Of a stretch of DNA of 64,000 nucleotides, positions 14,155-44,773 are shown piece by piece. Numbering within the stretch: the first letter of the stretch is position 1; every line of letters begins with the position of its first letter. The notes below the pieces were generated by a model that saw only the letters and a program-made list of their open reading frames with translations, searched no databases and was not told the origin of the DNA. The position numbers and the translations under genes are program-made. Origin of the DNA: Chitinivibrionales bacterium (GTDB lineage: Bacteria > Fibrobacterota > Chitinivibrionia > Chitinivibrionales > FEN-1185); the NCBI GenBank assembly GCA_035516255.1, contig DATJAL010000002.1:124001-188000 (forward strand), in the 5' to 3' direction.

Positions 14155-14262
<108 letters not shown>

Positions 14263-14500
14263 TCCAAAATACTCCCTGAAATGGTTAAATAGGGTCAAGA
14301 AGAGATTTTACACCTTCAAGCAAATTCTGCCCGTACTCCTTCGGACTACTGAGAACTACGGAAATGTGCAAACATATGTGAAAATATCTGGAATGCCAAA
14401 GCGCTCCGGAGGCGTCATGAACGCGTCCGATTGGTTATTGGACTTGCTGGATGCTATTTTATGATGTGGCTAACGACCCTGAGTAAAACAAGGGGGCCTT
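14263..14500. other. attL flank, non-coding
   Basis: No gene seen. The first ~130 bases are a diverged copy of the sequence that follows the right repeat (37900-38027), including the shared segments around GGACTACTGAGAACTACG and AAACATATGTGAAAATATC. The rest holds the leader of the restriction-modification gene with AGGGGG just before its GTG start. Confidence 0.7.
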
Positions 14501-17401
14501 GTGAGTTGTCCTCCAGTAATTCAATCCTTATTATCTCGGTTTACCTCCAATCAAGAATCCTATTCCGCTTCCACCTACAACGAAACCCAACTCCGCCAAG
14601 AATTCCTTAACCCGTTCTTCGAAGCATTGGGTTGGGATGTACCCAATAAACAAGGATTTGCCGAAGCCTACAAAGAAGTAATCCATGAAGACGCTGTGAA
14701 GGTCGGCACCGCAACCAAAGCACCAGATTATTCTTTCCGTGTCGGTGGTACTCGAAAGTTTTTTGTCGAAGCCAAGAGACCATCTGTAAACATCAAGGAC
14801 AATATTGACCCTGCTTTTCAGCTTCGGCGCTATGCATGGTCAGCTAAGCTACCGCTTTCAATTCTTACTGATTTTGAAGAATTCGCAGTTTACGATTGCC
14901 GTGAAAAACCGAACAAAAATGACAAGGCAAGTGTCGGACGTATACTGTACATTCGATTTGAAGAATATGAAAAACGTTGGGATGAGATTGCTTCAATATT
15001 TTCGAAAGATGCAATACAAAAAGGCTCTTTTGACAAATACGCAGAATCCGCTAGGGGCAAGAAAGGTACCTCTGAAGTAGATGATGAATTTCTTGAAGAA
15101 ATCTCGCGGTGGCGTGAACTTCTGGCTCGGAATATTGCAATCAACAATCCGAAACTCAGCCAACGAGAACTAAATTTTGCCGTACAGAGGACAATTGACC
15201 GAATAGTATTCTTGCGGATATGCGAAGCTCGGGGTATCGAGCATTATGGTACACTCTTGGAGCTATTAAATGGCGAAAATGTTTACAAGCGCATCCGTCA
15301 GAACTTCCAAAAAGCGGACGAGATTTATAATTCAGGGCTTTTTCATTTCAAGGATGAAAAGGGCCGGGCTGAACCTCCAGATACGCTAACGCTTTCCCTC
15401 CACATCGATGATAAACCGCTAAAAGACATTATAGAAAACCTGTATTATCCCGAAAGTCCGTATGAGTTTTCAGTTCTCCCAGCCGATATTCTAGGGCAGG
15501 TGTATGAACAGTTCCTTGGAAAGGTCATCCGGCTAACTGCCGGACATCAGGCAAAAGTCGAGGACAAGCCAGAAGTGAAAAAGGCCGGTGGTGTGTTCTA
15601 TACACCTACCTACATCGTCGATTACATCGTTAAGAATACAGTTGGGAAGATAGTTGAAGGAAAAACACCGAAACAGATTGAAAAACTAAAAATTCTCGAT
15701 CCAGCTTGTGGTTCAGGTTCTTTTCTCATTCAGGCATATCAGTTTCTGGCGGATTATCATCGTGACTGGTACATCAAGGACGGGATCGAAAAGAATTCAA
15801 AAGGTAAAGAACCCAAGCTGGTGCAGATTCGTAGCGGCGAATGGCGGCTAAGCACGACAGAAAGAAAGAAAATTTTACTGAACAATATTCATGGTGTCGA
15901 TATTGATTCTCAGGCTGTGGAAGTCACCAAGTTGTCGCTGCTCCTCAAGGTACTGGAAGGTGAAAACGAACAATCCCTGGCTCAGCAAATGACCATGTGG
16001 CATGAACGGGCATTGCCTGATCTGGAAAACAATATCAAGTGCGGAAATTCGCTGATTGGCAGAGATTTTTACGAAGGTGCACAAGAAACCATGGCCTTGG
16101 ATGATACTGAAGATGAGGAACGGATAAAGATAAATGCGTTTGATTGGGATGGAAAACATGGGTTTCAAGAAATAATGAGCAATGGTGGATTTGATGTGGT
16201 AATAGGGAATCCACCGTATGGTGCATCATTTTCAGATGATGAATTGAGCTATTTAATTAATAAATTTCCAATCGCAGATAAGTTCCCAGATAGCTACTGT
16301 ATTTTTATTCTTGAAGGCCTGAATTTATTAAAAACAAATAGTATAATGTCATATATCGTGCCAAACACTTTTTGTGATCTTGAGTCTTGTGATGAATATA
16401 GAAAATCACTGCTTTCTAATGTAACATTTGTCGACCTTTTTCAGTCAGGTTGGGCATTTAAAACCGCAGTAGTTGATACCTTGGTATTCATTCTTGTTAA
16501 AACTCCTTCCAAACCAAATAATAAGATTAAAATTACCGTAGGTCAAAGTAGTTATTTGCGCACAGTTAATTCTTTCCTAAAAAATGATATGATAAAAATT
16601 GATTATAGAAATATGGAAACTGAAAAAGACTTTTTATTACGTGTCAGTAAGAATACAATTCCACTAGGTACATTAGCAACTGTAAGTGCTGGTGTAAAAA
16701 TGTATGAAAAGGGTAAAGGAACACCACCGCAAACAGAAAAGACAATGACTGATAGGCCTTTCTCTAGAAAAGATAAATGTCCTAAAGGCTGGCGAGCGCT
16801 ATATAGAGGTGAGGATGTCGGCAGATATGAGCTCCAACACGAAGGCGAATATGTTAATTATGGCCAATGGTTGGCAGCACCACGTTCCGAGGAATTATTT
16901 AATGCTCCAAAAATATTAATGCGTAGAACGGACTATCGTCTTTTTTCTGTTACGGACAATACATCTTCAATCTGTGTTAATTCTTGTCATGTGATAAAAC
17001 TAAAAGATAATAAATCCAGTCTTCAGTCATATCAATTCTTACTGGGTATTTTAAATTCAAAATTGTTACAGCGTATTTTTGAAATCCAAAATCCTCAAAT
17101 GGTAGACAAAATATTTTCTGAAATAAAGGTAATTTATGTTGAGCGACTTCCCATCCGTCCAATTGATGTTTCCAAAGCATCTGACCAATATTTATTTAAT
17201 AAAATAGTCTCTCTTGTCACTTCCATGCTCGATTTTTATAAAAAGTTTCCACATGTGAAGACCGACCATGAAAAGACTCTTCTTCAACGCCAGATGGATG
17301 CCGCAGATCAAAAAATAGATGAGCTAGTATATGAGCTGTACGGGCTAACGAAAGAAGAAATAAGGGTTGTGGCGGAAACAAGGGAGACGGAATGGCCATA
17401 G
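14501..17401 (+). CDS. Single-chain restriction-modification enzyme (type IIG/Eco57I-like)
   Basis: 966 residues from GTG 14501 with AGGGGG upstream. Residues 20-190 are a nuclease domain of HSDR-N/PD-(D/E)XK type: D76, E90 and K92 lie in the DYSF...VEAKRP motif. The N6-adenine methyltransferase core has GGVFYTPTYIVDYI, DPACGSGSF from residue 400 and the catalytic NPPYG at 570-574. Residues about 690-880 resemble a TaqI/Eco57I target-recognition domain, and the C-terminus is the usual DELVYELYGLT helix. One chain should both methylate and cut its site. Its last codons overlap the SIR2 gene, suggesting one defence operon. Confidence 0.92.
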   Translation: MSCPPVIQSLLSRFTSNQESYSASTYNETQLRQEFLNPFFEALGWDVPNKQGFAEAYKEVIHEDAVKVGTATKAPDYSFRVGGTRKFFVEAKRPSVNIKDNIDPAFQLRRYAWSAKLPLSILTDFEEFAVYDCREKPNKNDKASVGRILYIRFEEYEKRWDEIASIFSKDAIQKGSFDKYAESARGKKGTSEVDDEFLEEISRWRELLARNIAINNPKLSQRELNFAVQRTIDRIVFLRICEARGIEHYGTLLELLNGENVYKRIRQNFQKADEIYNSGLFHFKDEKGRAEPPDTLTLSLHIDDKPLKDIIENLYYPESPYEFSVLPADILGQVYEQFLGKVIRLTAGHQAKVEDKPEVKKAGGVFYTPTYIVDYIVKNTVGKIVEGKTPKQIEKLKILDPACGSGSFLIQAYQFLADYHRDWYIKDGIEKNSKGKEPKLVQIRSGEWRLSTTERKKILLNNIHGVDIDSQAVEVTKLSLLLKVLEGENEQSLAQQMTMWHERALPDLENNIKCGNSLIGRDFYEGAQETMALDDTEDEERIKINAFDWDGKHGFQEIMSNGGFDVVIGNPPYGASFSDDELSYLINKFPIADKFPDSYCIFILEGLNLLKTNSIMSYIVPNTFCDLESCDEYRKSLLSNVTFVDLFQSGWAFKTAVVDTLVFILVKTPSKPNNKIKITVGQSSYLRTVNSFLKNDMIKIDYRNMETEKDFLLRVSKNTIPLGTLATVSAGVKMYEKGKGTPPQTEKTMTDRPFSRKDKCPKGWRALYRGEDVGRYELQHEGEYVNYGQWLAAPRSEELFNAPKILMRRTDYRLFSVTDNTSSICVNSCHVIKLKDNKSSLQSYQFLLGILNSKLLQRIFEIQNPQMVDKIFSEIKVIYVERLPIRPIDVSKASDQYLFNKIVSLVTSMLDFYKKFPHVKTDHEKTLLQRQMDAADQKIDELVYELYGLTKEEIRVVAETRETEWP

Positions 17402-18303
17402 AACTCGTCCCTGATCTAACCAAATTTCCACAGTTTTGTGGTGCCTGCAGGGAGGAGAAGTTAATCGTCTTTGTGGGTGCTGGAGTGTCAGCCCTTTGGG
17501 GATGTAAGAGATGGAAGGATATGGGTGTGGCCTTAATAGATTCCTGCTATAATCTGGGTTTTATAGATTACTGGGAACGCGAAACGCTTGCAAATAAGTA
17601 TTCATCATCACCACGAAGACTAATCACAATCGCAAAAAGTATACTTGGCAGATATTACACACAAGAACTGCAAAAGACAATCGAGCCTAACCGGAAGGAC
17701 AAGTTGCCAAATCTCTTCAAGAATCTATACGAGCTAAATGCAATCTACGTCACGACAAACATCGACAAACATTTTTCCGGCCTGTTCGAAAAGGCGTGCA
17801 TCCATTTCGACCCCAACAAATATGTGCCGTCGATACTGAAGCCAAAAAACATAATCCACCTTCATGGAGTTATTGACAATGAAGATAGTTTAGTCTTGAC
17901 CATTGACGAGTACGTTGGGAGGTACAGAGATAACGATCGCCACAAGCAGCTTTTGGAGCGTATATTCTTGGGCGACGATCAATATTGCGTCTTGTTTGTT
18001 GGATATGGGGCTGACGAGATGGAAATAATTGACTACATGATCGAGAAGTATGGTAGCAAATTGCAACGCTTCATCAATCGCTTATATATTTTGCTGCCAT
18101 TCTTCCAAAATGAAGAACAGCTGTTGCGCTATGAAAAGATGTACTTCTCTCAAGTTAATTTAGAAGTGATACCTTACAACATCAATGCTAGTGGATACGA
18201 TCAGCTGAATGAAGTTATTGAAACATGGCAAAAGGGATTCTCTGATTTCGCCTTGGGAAAAGGTTTCTACCAGTACAATCAACTTATCGAAAGAAACTTG
18301 TGA
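17392..18303 (+). CDS. SIR2-family NADase, defence effector subunit
   Basis: 303 residues. The Rossmann start is FVGAGVS (residues 27-33), then TTNID (121-125, with the NAD-ribose-contacting Asn123), HLHG (156-159, with candidate catalytic His158) and VGYG (203-206). This is the SIR2_2 layout of anti-phage NADases (ThsA, DSR1/DSR2, SIR2-HerA) rather than of deacetylases, since no zinc-binding cysteine quartet is present. The ATG overlaps the restriction gene by 10 bases and the stop overlaps the next gene by 4 (GTGA). In DSR2 an equivalent domain is fused to a large helical sensor; here the sensor-like part is a separate gene. NAD+ depletion is inferred. Confidence 0.88.
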   Translation: MAIELVPDLTKFPQFCGACREEKLIVFVGAGVSALWGCKRWKDMGVALIDSCYNLGFIDYWERETLANKYSSSPRRLITIAKSILGRYYTQELQKTIEPNRKDKLPNLFKNLYELNAIYVTTNIDKHFSGLFEKACIHFDPNKYVPSILKPKNIIHLHGVIDNEDSLVLTIDEYVGRYRDNDRHKQLLERIFLGDDQYCVLFVGYGADEMEIIDYMIEKYGSKLQRFINRLYILLPFFQNEEQLLRYEKMYFSQVNLEVIPYNINASGYDQLNEVIETWQKGFSDFALGKGFYQYNQLIERNL

Positions 18304-21511: not shown

Positions 21512-21799
21512 ATGGCTACATTCATGACGCGAGTTGAACTTCATGACGCAACATATATGGATTACGAGTCCCTCCACTCCGCAATGCAAAGGGAGGGCTT
21601 TACACGGACCATCTTGGCAGCTGATGGAAATACCTATATCCTGCCTACCGCCGAGTATTACCGAACTGCGCAATTAACCAAAAACCAAGTGCTCGAAAGT
21701 GCACAACGCGCTGCGGTAATGACAAGAAAAAGATATGCTGTAATTGTGGCAGAGACATCTGGTGTTACTTGGAGCGGCCTCCCAATCGTCAACAGTTAG
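21512..21799 (+). CDS. GhoS/DUF2622-like small protein (Cas2-type ferredoxin fold)
   Basis: 95 residues, starting two bases after the large helical gene with GGGAAG upstream, so it is in the same operon. The pattern TRVELHDATYMDYESLH, GFTRTI, DGNTYILPTAEY and a C-terminal YAVIVAETSGVTWSGLP matches small proteins annotated as GhoS-type, whose E. coli member is a Cas2-like endoribonuclease antitoxin. Whether this one cleaves RNA is unknown. Next to a SIR2 NADase it could restrain or regulate the system; that is inference. Family assignment is from memory of the motif. Confidence 0.65.
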   Translation: MATFMTRVELHDATYMDYESLHSAMQREGFTRTILAADGNTYILPTAEYYRTAQLTKNQVLESAQRAAVMTRKRYAVIVAETSGVTWSGLPIVNS

Positions 21800-21887: not shown

Positions 21888-22523
21888 ATGATGGATACTC
21901 TTGTGGTACATGATACTATATTAAAGGTTCTCGACGCTATACAATTAGTAAATGGCGTTTCGAACTTTTATCAGGTTGCCTGGTCTAATCTACTTTGGTT
22001 TATTGGCATTTTTGGCGCCGCAATTGCTATCTGCATTCCTATATTATTTGCCTTAATTCAGAGGCAAACCAACAAGCAATTAGAAAGGTCTTTGCGAGAA
22101 AAAACCGAGAGGGATATGCAAGTAATTCAAGAGTCGGTTACAAAGAAGCTAGCTGAAGTAGATTCCCAATTGTCCAAACATAACCTGAATATTTTAGAGA
22201 TGGAATGTAAGATACTTAGAAACACGGCATACACGCTCCGTGATTTGAAGAACCGTTCTGGAGCATACGAAAATATGGTTTTGGCCGGAATGAGGGCTCT
22301 CTCAATAGAGAACTATAAAATATTAAACGAGGTAGTCAAAAGTCTTTGCAATGAAATAATCCCGTATATGGACGAGGTAGATGCCGGTCTCGTGAAAGAT
22401 CGTGGTGATTTTCTTCCACAGTTAATAACTGAAATGCAAAATGATAGCCGAGAAGATGACAGATATGGGCTTTACATTCAAAGGCTGAAAGAAGCCCTGA
22501 ACTCATCGAAATACCTTCGATGA
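21888..22523 (+). CDS. Membrane-anchored coiled-coil protein, unknown function
   Basis: 211 residues, preceded by GGGGGAGGC. A single strong membrane helix lies at about residues 31-58 (LLWFIGIFGAAIAICIPILFAL), then a charged coiled coil to about residue 120 (RSLREKTERDMQV onwards) and a helical tail. The sequence is not recognised as a family. The layout of a short outside segment, one helix and a cytosolic coil is seen in membrane-tethered accessory proteins of defence systems, but no enzymatic motif is present. It lies 88 bases after the GhoS-like gene. Confidence 0.7.
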   Translation: MMDTLVVHDTILKVLDAIQLVNGVSNFYQVAWSNLLWFIGIFGAAIAICIPILFALIQRQTNKQLERSLREKTERDMQVIQESVTKKLAEVDSQLSKHNLNILEMECKILRNTAYTLRDLKNRSGAYENMVLAGMRALSIENYKILNEVVKSLCNEIIPYMDEVDAGLVKDRGDFLPQLITEMQNDSREDDRYGLYIQRLKEALNSSKYLR

Positions 22524-22550
22524 TTAACCTTGAAATTCCTGGGAACGTTG

Positions 22551-23192
22551 ATGGCCTTCAAGCTTGTTCCAGAACTTCTCTGCATTAGGTGCCTTCGATA
22601 TTTTTCACACTGGGAACATCTGGAAAAAAGCATAAACATTAAATTATCGACCCCCAATCTACGTCACCACCAAAAATATTGTAGATTGCATTTCAAAAAT
22701 CTCGTTTTTGATTCATCAAACTTAAAAATTTATTGTGTGGGACCAGACACACCCCAGAAAGAACGGGATCAATGTGGGCACATTGCCAAAACCATGTGGT
22801 CTTCCGAAGAAGTTCCTGGTGACAAAATCGGGTGGTATGCAAAGAAGAAACTGAATGATGATCTGGGGTATGCCTTTATTCCAGTGTTCAAAGAAAATGT
22901 CGCAGGTATAGCGATTGTTCATAAACGGAAAACCTTTTGTTATTCACTCTCCCGCAAGGAATTTATTTCCGGAGATAAAGATTCAACACCTCGTTGGTGT
23001 GCTGATAAAATCTGGATTTATGAGCCATACCGACGGATGGGCATTTCATCAAGGATCATACATAGTATTGCTCTATATTTTCATGAGGATGTATCAAACT
23101 TAGGATTTTTAACACCTTTTACAGACGCCGGGAAGGCGTTAGCACTTTCATTAATAAAAGATACAATTTTGTTAGCAGCCTCTACTAAATAG
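22551..23192 (+). CDS. ESCO/Eco1-like acetyltransferase with N-terminal zinc-finger-like motif
   Basis: 213 residues from ATG 22551 (GGGAA upstream; a TTG at 22530 would add seven). The N-terminus has C11-x2-C14 and H40-x3-C44 (HQKYC), resembling the zf-C2H2_3 finger of eukaryotic cohesin acetyltransferases, with a longer linker. The C-terminal part has DKIWIYEPYRRMGISSRII and PFTDAGKALA, matching the RIWV...RRKGIA...SR and PTPDGKLFA pattern of the ESCO acetyltransferase domain, including the acetyl-CoA loop R-R-x-G-I. No cohesin exists in bacteria, so the acetylated target is unknown. It is probably cotranscribed with the preceding gene. Confidence 0.68.
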   Translation: MAFKLVPELLCIRCLRYFSHWEHLEKSINIKLSTPNLRHHQKYCRLHFKNLVFDSSNLKIYCVGPDTPQKERDQCGHIAKTMWSSEEVPGDKIGWYAKKKLNDDLGYAFIPVFKENVAGIAIVHKRKTFCYSLSRKEFISGDKDSTPRWCADKIWIYEPYRRMGISSRIIHSIALYFHEDVSNLGFLTPFTDAGKALALSLIKDTILLAASTK

Positions 23193-23221: not shown

Positions 23222-23572
23222 ATGTTTAGTAAGACAAAGAAAATTCTAAACGTCCTCTTGGAACACCATAAGTTAACTTGTATAAGTAATAAATTCTCTG
23301 AAGTTCCTATTACCACTTTCCTAATTACCTATGGTAAACTTCAAAAGAAAACCGGAATTGCAATTAACCTCTATAGTATTGGCCCATACCTTGACGATAT
23401 AGCCACCTGGTGCTTCGAAAATGGTTACCCACCACTTAATGCCCTGGCCGTCAACAGCGCGTCGCAAGAACCAGGGGAAGGTTATGATCTTGCCGAAGGT
23501 TGTAGCACAGAAACATGGGAAATTGATGTTGAACGTGTTATAGAATACAGGGGATATCCCACCGTGGTATAA
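23222..23572 (+). CDS. Orphan 116-aa protein next to the ESCO-like gene
   Basis: 116 residues with a strong AGGAGG ribosome site at the right distance. The centre reads YPPLNALAVNSAS then PGEGYDLAEGC, followed by an acidic WEIDVERVIEY tail. I have a vague memory of such LNALVVN/PGEGY motifs in defence-island proteins but no firm family. It follows the ESCO-like gene by 30 bases and may be its partner. No membrane segment or catalytic motif is seen. Confidence 0.65.
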   Translation: MFSKTKKILNVLLEHHKLTCISNKFSEVPITTFLITYGKLQKKTGIAINLYSIGPYLDDIATWCFENGYPPLNALAVNSASQEPGEGYDLAEGCSTETWEIDVERVIEYRGYPTVV

Positions 23573-34543: not shown

Positions 34544-35659
34544 ATGGGTATCAGAAAGAGTGAAGCTGGAGTTAGGCCCGTTGGTGCTGACCGCTGGAGG
34601 GTTACTGCCCGGATTCGTGTAAATAGGAAAATCAGACAGAGGCAAACTACCTTCAAGGGAACAAAGGAACAGGCCAGGGATCTCCACGCCTTGCTTAAAA
34701 AGGAACTCCGGGAAGGAAAAAGTGACCCATCTCCCTTTCTTCCGACGACCATTCAGAAATTTGGAGACCTCCTGAAAATTCACTTGGATAAACACGATCA
34801 GTGTTCACCTACATATCTGGCAAAGATAAGACATGTGGCCGATGAGCTGGGGGAGATCGACATCCGGTTCTTTCCGGATAGATTCGAAAACTACCTACAT
34901 AATCTCAGGGGGACTAAATCACAGCGAACCCATAAAATGCGATCGAATGCGACGATCAATAGGGTGATTGAAATTGTCAGAGCCGTGTACAATACCGGTA
35001 TAGCTCTTGGATTAATTGAAACCAACCCGATTACAAAAATCAGGTTTCCACGCCTTAAGGAGTTACCCAGGGATGTCATTCTGAGTGAACTGGATAAACA
35101 AAACCTCCTGAACGTCATTGACAAAGAAGCACCTCATCTGTCAGCCATAGTAAGGTTTGCCCTTCAGGTGCCATGCCGCAGGTCAGAGCTCGTCAAGATG
35201 CGGAAGGAAGACCTCGACCTCATTCACAACGCTATCCGGGTTAAGGCTGAGAACTCCAAGAATGACAAGGGCTGCTGGAAACCGATTCCACCAGACATGA
35301 TAGACTACTTCAGAAACCTACCCAATGAAACCGACTACCTTTTTTATCGGAAAGATGAAAACACGACTCCTGGGACTACGATTCTAACGGGTCTTGGGGA
35401 CTTTCACAGAGCATGGCGGCGTTGCTTAAGGTTAGCTAAGCTGGATAACTTCCGGTTTCATGACACGCGCCATTGCAGTGCGTCTGCATTAATTAATAAC
35501 GGTACTCCGGAACAGGTCGTGATGGATGTGGCGAACTGGAAGACTAATATGCTGAGGAAATACTATCACAGGGAGCCAATTCAGTCGTTGAAACTGATAA
35601 AATTCAACCCGGCACCCGCGAGCGAAAAAACAATCGAAAGAATAGCGGCGAGTGTATAA
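34544..35659 (+). CDS. int: Tyrosine-type integrase
   Basis: 371 residues. An N-terminal arm-binding region (about 1-60) and SAM-like core-binding domain (65-160) are followed by the catalytic domain with Arg212 (PCRRSEL), a Lys near 234, His306 and Arg309 (HDTRH), a Trp at 332 in place of the usual second His, and the nucleophile Tyr340 or 341 (LRKYYH). It most likely recombines the 77-bp tRNA-Asn repeat. A TTGACA precedes it at 34493 and a long T run follows. The gene ends convergently with the RES gene. Confidence 0.92.
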   Translation: MGIRKSEAGVRPVGADRWRVTARIRVNRKIRQRQTTFKGTKEQARDLHALLKKELREGKSDPSPFLPTTIQKFGDLLKIHLDKHDQCSPTYLAKIRHVADELGEIDIRFFPDRFENYLHNLRGTKSQRTHKMRSNATINRVIEIVRAVYNTGIALGLIETNPITKIRFPRLKELPRDVILSELDKQNLLNVIDKEAPHLSAIVRFALQVPCRRSELVKMRKEDLDLIHNAIRVKAENSKNDKGCWKPIPPDMIDYFRNLPNETDYLFYRKDENTTPGTTILTGLGDFHRAWRRCLRLAKLDNFRFHDTRHCSASALINNGTPEQVVMDVANWKTNMLRKYYHREPIQSLKLIKFNPAPASEKTIERIAASV

Positions 35660-35703: not shown

Positions 35704-36681
35704 TTACAGGCTGTTCAATAAAGTCTTCCGATGCTGATAGACAACTGGCGTTCCCACTGCCTCAATATTGTTAATATCCCATTTGAAAAGGACAAGATTT
35801 TCGTGATAGGTCTTGGAGCTTTTAAATTTTATTCCGTCATATCCCATCATCTTAGCGACATCTGCAATAAACCTTGGAATAAAGTATTCTGGTTTCCATC
35901 CGCTGGAGAGTGGTGTTTTATTTATGGTGTCGCAATGGACCAAACCAAAAGCAATTTCATCAAATCCGTCAGGTACTTCTGGCCAGGTTCCATCAGGAGC
36001 TAAATCGAGAATATCCTTTATTCCTTTTATTCTGAATTCCTGAGTCCACACCATTCCCTCGTCAGAGTCCAACGCTTCTGTCGCCGCGCATTCTTTTGAC
36101 CGGGACAAGTAGAAAACCGGCTGACCAAAATGGTTAAACCTACCCTCTGGAATTTCTACCTTATCTGGATCGGGAGGCATCATATCAGATGGACTGAATA
36201 TTACACTGGAATTTACCTTTCGAGAACGATACCATTTTTCATCTAATATTTTGCTCTTTGGAAAATTATTTATGGAGTTAATGATTGTCTTGCCCAGTTC
36301 ATGAGAGCACCCCAAATAGGGAAATTTTTGTAAAAAGGCATAAAAATCATCAAATCGAGATTTGTTTTTCTCTTGCCATTGGTCAGATTGCATTTCAAAG
36401 TTTCTCTCCCATTTGGACTTTACTCCGATTGTGCAAAATATGTCAAGTGAAGAACCACAGAAGGGGCATTGAATACGAGAAGCTACTTCTTCCCTATATT
36501 CTTTAGGAACTTCGCAATCGTTGAAAACATCTTCCCAATCTACTTCAACCCCATGAATCCAGATTGTGTCCCCACCATCCCATGGTTGGCAAGTATCACA
36601 ATACGCGACTTCTTCTTGAACGGCGATAGTAAATTTTTCGAGAAGATCGGGGTCAAGTTCGGCTTGACTTTTACTCTTCAT
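35704..36681 (-). CDS. RES-domain protein with HEPN-like N-terminus, putative NAD+-consuming effector
   Basis: 325 residues. Residues 1-150 contain two Cys pairs (CDTCQPWDGG; CPFCGSSLD) and a helical HEPN-like segment, as in HEPN/RES N-terminal domains. Residues about 165-310 are a RES domain: DMMPPDPDK, GRFNHFGQPVFYLS (the conserved Arg and Tyr), ECAATEA with the Glu, then KGIKDILDL. RES proteins such as MbcT break NAD+ by phosphorolysis and are usually checked by an Xre/MbcA antitoxin, which I do not see here. It may be an abortive-infection effector or toxin. Confidence 0.82.
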   Translation of the reverse strand: MKSKSQAELDPDLLEKFTIAVQEEVAYCDTCQPWDGGDTIWIHGVEVDWEDVFNDCEVPKEYREEVASRIQCPFCGSSLDIFCTIGVKSKWERNFEMQSDQWQEKNKSRFDDFYAFLQKFPYLGCSHELGKTIINSINNFPKSKILDEKWYRSRKVNSSVIFSPSDMMPPDPDKVEIPEGRFNHFGQPVFYLSRSKECAATEALDSDEGMVWTQEFRIKGIKDILDLAPDGTWPEVPDGFDEIAFGLVHCDTINKTPLSSGWKPEYFIPRFIADVAKMMGYDGIKFKSSKTYHENLVLFKWDINNIEAVGTPVVYQHRKTLLNSL

Positions 36682-37045: not shown

Positions 37046-37489
37046 TTATTTACCCGCCCTTCTTCTGGGGAGAATTTCGCCTTTGTTAAGCCTCTCTGCC
37101 CCGGCATTGTACACATTCAAGAATGACTGCAGACACTCTTGATATTCTTTTACCTGATTCATCGTGTTGGACTTGTCTTTAGAAAGGAGCAAACCCCTAC
37201 ATTCATCCTGACAACGGGTTGCTTCTCGCATAAGTGTGAGCACCTCTGTCTCCGTCATATTGGCCTGCGAGATCCTATTCATCAAGTTTTTCGCACGACG
37301 ATCTAAAAACTCGCGGGGGCTCTCGCCTTTTTCGGGCACCCGATCGAACAATATAGGCAGAGCAATGTTCAGTGCCTCCTCGATCACGGAAGACATTGAG
37401 GCGCGTGGCCCTAGACGTGTTGCCAGATAGGTAACGTATTGCTGAAGTAAATCCTCGGCCTCTGGTGAAAGGGTTACAGTAGTTCGCAT
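37046..37489 (-). CDS. Ribbon-helix-helix protein
   Basis: 147 residues from ATG 37489 (AAGGAG upstream; an ATG at 37504 overlaps that site). Residues 1-45 are a ribbon-helix-helix: MRTTVTLSPEAEDLLQQYV and SMSSVIEEALNIAL. The rest is helical. Probably a DNA-binding regulator, perhaps of the small gene and RES gene downstream (57 bases away). Confidence 0.7.
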   Translation of the reverse strand: MRTTVTLSPEAEDLLQQYVTYLATRLGPRASMSSVIEEALNIALPILFDRVPEKGESPREFLDRRAKNLMNRISQANMTETEVLTLMREATRCQDECRGLLLSKDKSNTMNQVKEYQECLQSFLNVYNAGAERLNKGEILPRRRAGK

Positions 37490-37822
37490 ATATTTCTCCT
37501 TCATTTAATAATACGATTGATGCAATATTGATGGTATAGTAATAATATAATATGTTTGACAAAAAAAGTCAAGTCAGTATTTATATTTTGAAAAGAACGG
37601 TTCATACAGATTATCAACAGGAGGTAAGGTGGATTATAACCTTTAAATTTCTTGGTAGTATTATTTAAGGATAGACTTACCAGAATTGGGCTTTTGAAAT
37701 GTTTAAACAATTATTTCGAGCGCAAAATGTGAAAGGAATGTGAAAATATCACACACAGATTTAAATATTTAAATATTCAAGGAAATATAAGAAAGACAGA
37801 TTTTAGATATATTCTCTGAGGT
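37490..37822. other. AT-rich right end of the element, non-coding
   Basis: About 330 bases of very AT-rich DNA with no convincing gene, between the ribbon-helix-helix gene and the right repeat; arm sites for the integrase would be expected here but I cannot identify them. Confidence 0.5.
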
Positions 37823-37899
37823 CTGTTAACCACCGGGTCGGGGGTTCGAATCCCTCCACTCCAGCCAATTTATTATATCTCCCCAACATTCCTGAATAC
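37823..37899 (+). repeat. attR core: right copy of the 77-bp direct repeat
   Basis: Exact copy of 14186-14262: the 3' half of tRNA-Asn with CCA and 32 following bases. It lacks the 5' half of the tRNA, so it is not a tRNA gene. Similarity to 14263-14390 continues to about 38027. Confidence 0.92.
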
Positions 37900-38056
37900 C
37901 CCGAAATACTCCCTGAAATGGTTAAATAGGGTCTAAAAGAAATTTTACACTTCTAGGAAAATTCTGCCACTACCTCTTCGGACTACTGAGAACTACGAAA
38001 ATGTGCAAACATATGTGAAAATATCGGGAAGTAGGGGACAGCTAGGCATAGAAGGA

Positions 38057-44686: not shown

Positions 44687-44773
44687 TTAAAAAACCGGGT
44701 CGGACTTCGAATCCCTCCATTCCAGTTATTCCCCATACATCTGAATACTCTGACCTCCTAAAATGGAGGGCAT
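44687..44773 (+). repeat. Decayed tRNA-Asn 3' end plus flank (remnant 3)
   Basis: TTAAAAAACCGGGTCGGACT, TCGAATCCCTCCATTCCAG and then TTATTCCCCATACATCTGAA align with the 14186 repeat and its flank, with several mismatches. No 5' tRNA half is present. Confidence 0.7.

Follow-up and report, generated by a model that had tools for sequence, protein, structure and literature searches.

Whether a bacterial mobile element may carry an enzyme of the ESCO/Eco1 type is the question raised by a 213-aa open reading frame in a 64,000-nucleotide window (the whole stretch of DNA analysed here) from a Chitinivibrionales bacterium. Bacteria are not known to have cohesin, and an earlier note on this DNA had read the frame as a relative of the eukaryotic cohesin acetyltransferases with a zinc-finger-like N-terminus. 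Our data suggest instead, with a probability of roughly 0.55, that the protein is a diverged acyltransferase of the GNAT fold and belongs to the cargo of an integrative element; its sequence marks it as a divergent GNAT and does not establish it as a cohesin acetyltransferase. The frame itself is genuine, as had been claimed, and is a real gene: given the local base composition, 213 codons would stay free of stops by chance with a probability of about 2e-6. It is co-oriented with the 95-aa, 211-aa and 116-aa ORFs around it (Table 1), with 28 bp between the end of the 211-aa protein gene and its ATG. The 116-aa protein contains a PPLNALAVNSASQEPGEGY segment and matched no family in a Pfam scan.

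Table 1. Features of the integrative element and of the 213-aa gene within it (positions in the window).
Feature	Position	Strand	Remarks
tRNA-Asn gene, integration site	14155..14230	+	
Left attachment repeat	14180..14330	+	Overlaps the tRNA-Asn 3' end
Type IIG restriction-modification enzyme	14501..17401	+	PDLC03604 E 7e-203; Eco57I
SIR2 domain gene, N-terminal part of split Dsr1	17392..18303	+	Dsr1 E 5e-74; SIR2_2
C-terminal part of split Dsr1, 1069 aa	18300..21509	+	Dsr1 E 5e-96
95-aa ORF upstream	21512..21799	+	GhoS-like match, weak (E 0.043), no other
211-aa protein	21888..22523	+	N-terminal hydrophobic segment, then coiled-coil-like (by eye)
ORF under study, 213-aa GNAT-domain protein	22551..23192	+	ATG at 22551, stop at 23192; in-frame TTG at 22530
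Cys/His-rich N-terminus, codons of C11-x2-C14 ... H39/H40-x3-C44	22581..22682	+	Possible metal site; ESCO spacing absent
Codon of H124	22920..22922	+	Aligns with Esco general base E491; His in the Streptomyces relative too
GNAT motif A, DKIWIYEPYRRMGISSRIIHSIALYF	23004..23081	+	Residues 152-177; predicted to bind acetyl-CoA
C-terminal motif TPFTDAGKALA	23112..23144	+	Residues 188-198; Streptomyces relative has STPISDAGLNLA; resembles ESCO SDPTPDGKLFA
116-aa ORF downstream	23222..23572	+	AGGAGG ahead of ATG (strong ribosome-binding site)
Tyrosine integrase of the element	34544..35659	+	PF00589 E 1.6e-17
Right attachment repeat	37819..37967	+	Direct repeat, ~150 bp

The proposed location on a mobile element was borne out, the gene lying inside an integrative element of ~23.6 kb (14180-37967; GC 0.426 vs 0.53 in both flanks) that is inserted at a tRNA-Asn gene, is bounded by ~150-bp direct repeats, with the tRNA-Asn 3' end repeated exactly at 37842-37863, and encodes an AAA_25 protein and a primase-like protein (PF01896) as well as its integrase. 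To the right of the element (44703-44724) the tRNA-Asn 3' end recurs a third time, with 3 mismatches, perhaps as a second or older attachment scar. The defence system Dsr1, which is one protein of ~1227 aa in the PADLOC model, is here divided between two genes with a 4-bp overlap. The 213-aa gene had been placed beside a SIR2 NADase, which holds in a loose sense: the two share the element, the SIR2 gene ending 4.2 kb upstream. The element also holds a RES-domain protein (35704-36681; PF08808, E 5e-9) and a 152-aa neighbour (37046-37504), which are possibly an NAD-consuming toxin and its partner.

Sequence comparison identifies the C-terminal half of the 213-aa protein (about residues 100-213) as a GNAT domain, with a homologous domain in a protein from a Streptomyces plasmid. 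Motif A of the GNAT superfamily (beta-4/alpha-3, R-x-x-G-x-S/A) is present at residues 152-177, where profile alignment also places it, with D152 aligned where GNATs usually have an acidic residue in beta-4 and KIWIYEPYRRMGISSR at residues 153-168. Comparison with ten GNATs by hhalign gave 81% over 98 columns, against 17-38% for bacterial proteins that join a zinc finger to a GNAT-like domain (zf-GNATs) and 3% for ESCO. Generic GNAT models in Pfam, including Acetyltransf_1 (PF00583), did not match the protein even at E<=10, no family was matched in NCBIfam and PADLOC scans, and a PHROGs scan returned a weak acetyltransferase match and nothing else. The ESCO-like order that had been described for this half (RIWV..RRxGI..SR, then PT/DxGKxxA) is present as KIWI....RRMGISSR ... 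TPFTDAGKALA (residues 153-198); the whole window has this motif pair a single time, against an expectation of none.

A Pfam scan up to E 10 returned PF13880 as the sole match to the protein (14.4 bits, E 0.034), but the curated cut-off of 22.8 bits was not reached and PF13878 was unmatched. On the same PF13880 model, four of ten control GNATs score 12.0-16.1 bits, via motif A alone or nearly so; the alignment extends to the PxxDxGK motif in the 213-aa protein (profile 8-62) and in the Streptomyces protein (7-59). Against an ESCO profile built from three PDB sequences (the sequences as deposited), motif A of the 213-aa protein scores 47.0, compared with a mean of 28.4 (sd 5.2, max 44.3) for 55 unrelated GNATs, and the best local alignment to this profile spans KIWIYEPYRRMGISSRIIHSIALYF only. 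The ESCO affinity is thus slight, not decisive, and confined to the cofactor-binding motif. The Esco-invariant catalytic residues are E491, S527 and S566 in mouse Esco2 (PMC7300003). Their positions are taken in the 213-aa protein by H124, D152 and L187, in an alignment whose part before residue 150 is weak, and the chemistry would therefore differ from that of Esco even if the fold were close. The AlphaFold model of the protein alone (mean pLDDT 34) is too poor for fold comparison.

The N-terminal half had been likened to zf-C2H2_3 on account of a C-x2-C ... H-x3-C arrangement. These residues do exist (C11-x2-C14 and H40-x3-C44), and residues 1-99 contain 11 Cys and His vs 3.6 expected; a loose CxxC...[HC]x3-5[HC] pattern arises in 7% of same-composition shuffles. 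The spacing of the ESCO finger, taken here as the C2H2 of PF13878 (C-x2-C-x11-14-H-x3-4-H), is absent from the N-terminus, PF13878 gave no match to the protein at E<=10, and the N-terminal 99 residues matched nothing. Residues 1-60 score no better than shuffles against ESCO, residues 1-99 and 1-152 gave Z of about 0 in shuffle tests vs ESCO and bacterial zf-GNATs, and Z ranged from -1.2 to 1.2 vs ESCO, bacterial zf-GNAT and combined profiles. The hhalign scores of this half likewise fall inside the shuffle range, and the pairwise scores of residues 1-99 are not distinct from those of control GNATs. The shuffle test can detect a real relation, because ESCO2, run as a positive control, gives Z 5.4-6.8 on the bacterial zf-GNAT profile. 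MAFFT aligned the N-terminal half colinearly with ESCO, but this alignment was rejected as evidence, the shuffle tests giving Z of about 0. A metal site is possible from the residues present, but the claimed zf-C2H2_3-like N-terminus finds no counterpart in PF13878, in the ESCO spacing or in the shuffle scores. What survives of the ESCO/Eco1 identity is thus a bacterial GNAT, borne on a mobile element, whose motif A is faintly ESCO-like (47.0 vs max 44.3). The data do not support an enzyme of ESCO/Eco1 type that has the ESCO finger: the N-terminal half is not alignable above chance, and the residues at Esco-invariant positions differ.

The closest relative came from tblastn against 72,556 plasmids (7.3 Gb), which returned one match at E<=10, a Streptomyces GNAT (E 3e-3; OG414_RS01635, WP_331730883.1) on a plasmid of Streptomyces sp. 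NBC_01174. The two C-terminal domains align with a score of 103 and a shuffle Z of 16-18, the latter partly selected too, as WP_331730883.1 is the best match of a large database; the score exceeds those of all 65 control GNATs (top 74), three of which were chosen by a profile including the 213-aa protein and are high by selection. The GNAT C-terminal domain is alike at 33% over 69 aa ungapped, with D152, H124 and TPxxDAGxxLA common to both proteins, whereas the Streptomyces protein has a recognisable CxCGM...HxxHH finger region and its N-terminal half is not alignable with that of the 213-aa protein above chance. No closer relative was found in phages, IMG/VR, plasmids or 167 other genomes of the phylum, and a pattern search of 84,980 species genomes gave nothing closer than WP_331730883.1. 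Several candidates were discarded: a genome-contig match (57% over 30 aa) was a chance match within an unrelated protein, two viral pattern matches were chance and outside any GNAT frame, and six matches from a two-sequence profile, aligned at motif A, proved to be ordinary GNATs or proteins of no relation.

The search prompted by the reading of this protein as a bacterial ESCO led to a bacterial family that joins the ESCO zinc finger to a GNAT-like domain. On plasmids and on a Mu-like phage contig there are proteins in which a PF13878 finger scoring above cut-off precedes a GNAT-like domain, so that the premise of a purely eukaryotic ESCO-like architecture does not hold. A consensus probe returned 140 records from the plasmid collection, mostly Pseudomonas megaplasmids but also Agrobacterium, Neorhizobium, Rhodovastum and others (only the returned database matches were taken as evidence). 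Four of five scanned finger-bearing members score 29.5-35.3 bits on PF13878, a family described as the zinc-finger of acetyl-transferase ESCO, and so pass its gathering cut-off of 27; most scanned members also have a GNAT match, mostly weak. A seven-member profile searched against the PDB placed two finger-bearing ESCO chains at the top (E 0.002 and 0.0036), via the finger alone, and hhalign of the family with ESCO was good in the finger only (88.6%, 28 columns), the middle region giving Z 0.2. The finger is thus common to ESCO and the bacterial zf-GNATs, and kinship of the catalytic halves is indicated only at the level of the GNAT superfamily. The AlphaFold model of the IMG/VR phage zf-GNAT (pLDDT 39.6) is too poor for fold comparison. 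We found no paper on these bacterial proteins in the literature searched.

By profile comparison (hhalign 95-96% over 156-183 columns) the Streptomyces WP_331730883.1 is a member of this family, to which the 213-aa protein appears tied through its GNAT half only. The GNAT domain of the latter scores weakly against seven core members (45.1, about third in a ranking together with 55 unrelated GNATs), the family profile does not recover the protein in its own genome, and scans of the phylum and relatives with PF13878 and zf-GNAT family profiles brought up no convincing member. Several family genes have defence neighbours. A finger-less relative adjoins GajA and GajB (Gabija) on an Agrobacterium plasmid (L024:2923-6260), zf-GNAT genes adjoin GajB (Gabija) on a second Agrobacterium plasmid (L025:2233-6187) and MzaB on a Rhodovastum plasmid (L023:2230-6339), and a cytosine methyltransferase lies near the Streptomyces gene. 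On an IMG/VR contig (L035:54-4624) a zf-GNAT accompanies a Mu-type transposase and an AAA/TniB-like protein, a setting that would correspond to the early genes of a Mu-like phage; the contig also has a tape-measure-like ORF. Relatives of this GNAT type that lack the finger (~333 aa, annotated hypothetical) were also seen on Providencia and Klebsiella/E. coli plasmids (L030:1886-2887 and L031:1658-2659).

These results bear on several other accounts of the protein. It may be a full but fast-diverged zf-GNAT of ESCO architecture, with a degenerate finger, a linker helix and a GNAT domain that acetylates lysines on a DNA-associated protein. The link of its GNAT half to the finger-bearing WP_331730883.1, the colinearity in MAFFT of CxxC...HH, KIxxVxPxxP, LGYxF, VxG, IWI....RR and PxxDxG, and a motif A that scores higher on ESCO than that of any of 55 unrelated GNATs all point this way, but the N-terminal colinearity is at chance level in every shuffle test, the ESCO finger spacing is absent and the family profile misses the protein in its own genome; we regard this account as unlikely, while giving it real weight. 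An ordinary GNAT acting on a small molecule (polyamine, antibiotic or amino acid), its ESCO look being a superfamily signal, is somewhat less likely again. It would explain why hhalign favours generic GNATs over zf-GNATs and ESCO, why generic GNATs reach equal PF13880 scores and why motif A has the canonical R-x-x-G-x-S/A form, yet it sits poorly with the failure of generic GNAT Pfam models to match even at E<=10 and with a best relative, by far, that is a finger-bearing protein.

A small mobile-element GNAT whose gene is followed, 29 bp further on, by a short ORF also recalls the TacT-type toxins of toxin-antitoxin pairs, which would acetylate aminoacyl-tRNA and stabilise the element; as toxin models were unmatched and the neighbours include no ribbon-helix-helix/DUF1778 or other antitoxin family, we consider this very improbable. 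That the protein is a true ESCO acquired from a eukaryote by horizontal transfer is scarcely credible: PF13880 is indeed its sole Pfam match, but the closest relative is bacterial, the Esco-invariant catalytic residues are not kept and the similarity to ESCO is below that to WP_331730883.1.

For the preferred reading, a divergent GNAT carried as element cargo, we infer the mechanism beyond the GNAT domain itself. Acetyl-CoA would be bound through the R161-R-M-G-I-S-S loop, D152 and/or H124 (both common to the Streptomyces relative) could act as the base deprotonating the amine, and an amine, most likely that of a protein, would receive the acetyl group. The N-terminus, rich in Cys and His, probably serves as a diverged module for docking substrate or nucleic acid and may bind metal. 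Against this reading count the lack of any close relative in the plasmids, phages, IMG/VR and 167 genomes searched and an N-terminal stretch of 99 residues that matches nothing. In its most likely role the enzyme would assist or regulate the element or its defence genes, with protein or small-molecule acetylation as defence-island cargo the most likely activity; it is the location of the gene, and that only, which suggests a function in defence.

The 213-aa protein alone is of modest significance, as one more divergent GNAT among integrative-element cargo. Bolder, and in our view distinctly doubtful, is the proposal that it represents, in degenerate form, a prokaryotic lineage of zinc-finger-GNATs ancestral to ESCO/Eco1, and that this lineage acts in bacterial mobile elements by acetylating a protein bound to DNA, perhaps an SMC-like or a defence protein; if true, this would give cohesin acetylation a phage/plasmid-conflict ancestry. 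The wider result is the weightier one, namely the plasmid and phage-contig proteins that unite an ESCO-type finger with a GNAT-like domain, some of them encoded next to Gabija and Mza genes, which form a concrete set for testing the origin of cohesin acetylation.

Compared with known systems, the 213-aa protein resembles ESCO1/ESCO2/Eco1 (PF13878 + PF13880; PDB 5t53, 6sp0, 5n1u) in the IWV....RRxxIxSR order and the C-terminal P-x-x-D-x-G-K-x-x-A, but it has no matching zinc finger, carries H124, D152 and L187/T188 where Esco has E, S and S/D, and has a motif-to-motif distance four residues shorter. With generic GNATs (PF00583) it shares motif A and, by profile comparison, the predicted fold, whereas it lacks a PF00583 match and its N-terminal half has diverged. 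The bacterial zf-C2H2_3 + GNAT proteins (among them WP_080843353.1, WP_162530561.1 and WP_078465789.1; annotated 'C2H2-type zinc finger protein') are similar in having a Cys/His N-terminus followed by a GNAT-like domain, IW[IV]....RR and a C-terminal Px[ST] motif, and a location on mobile elements, several adjoining defence genes; they differ in their canonical ESCO-type finger above cut-off, their YDFxQW and GAC.F motifs, an often present extra 200-aa N-terminal domain, and a C-terminal PPLSxAM in place of the TPFTDAGK of the 213-aa protein.
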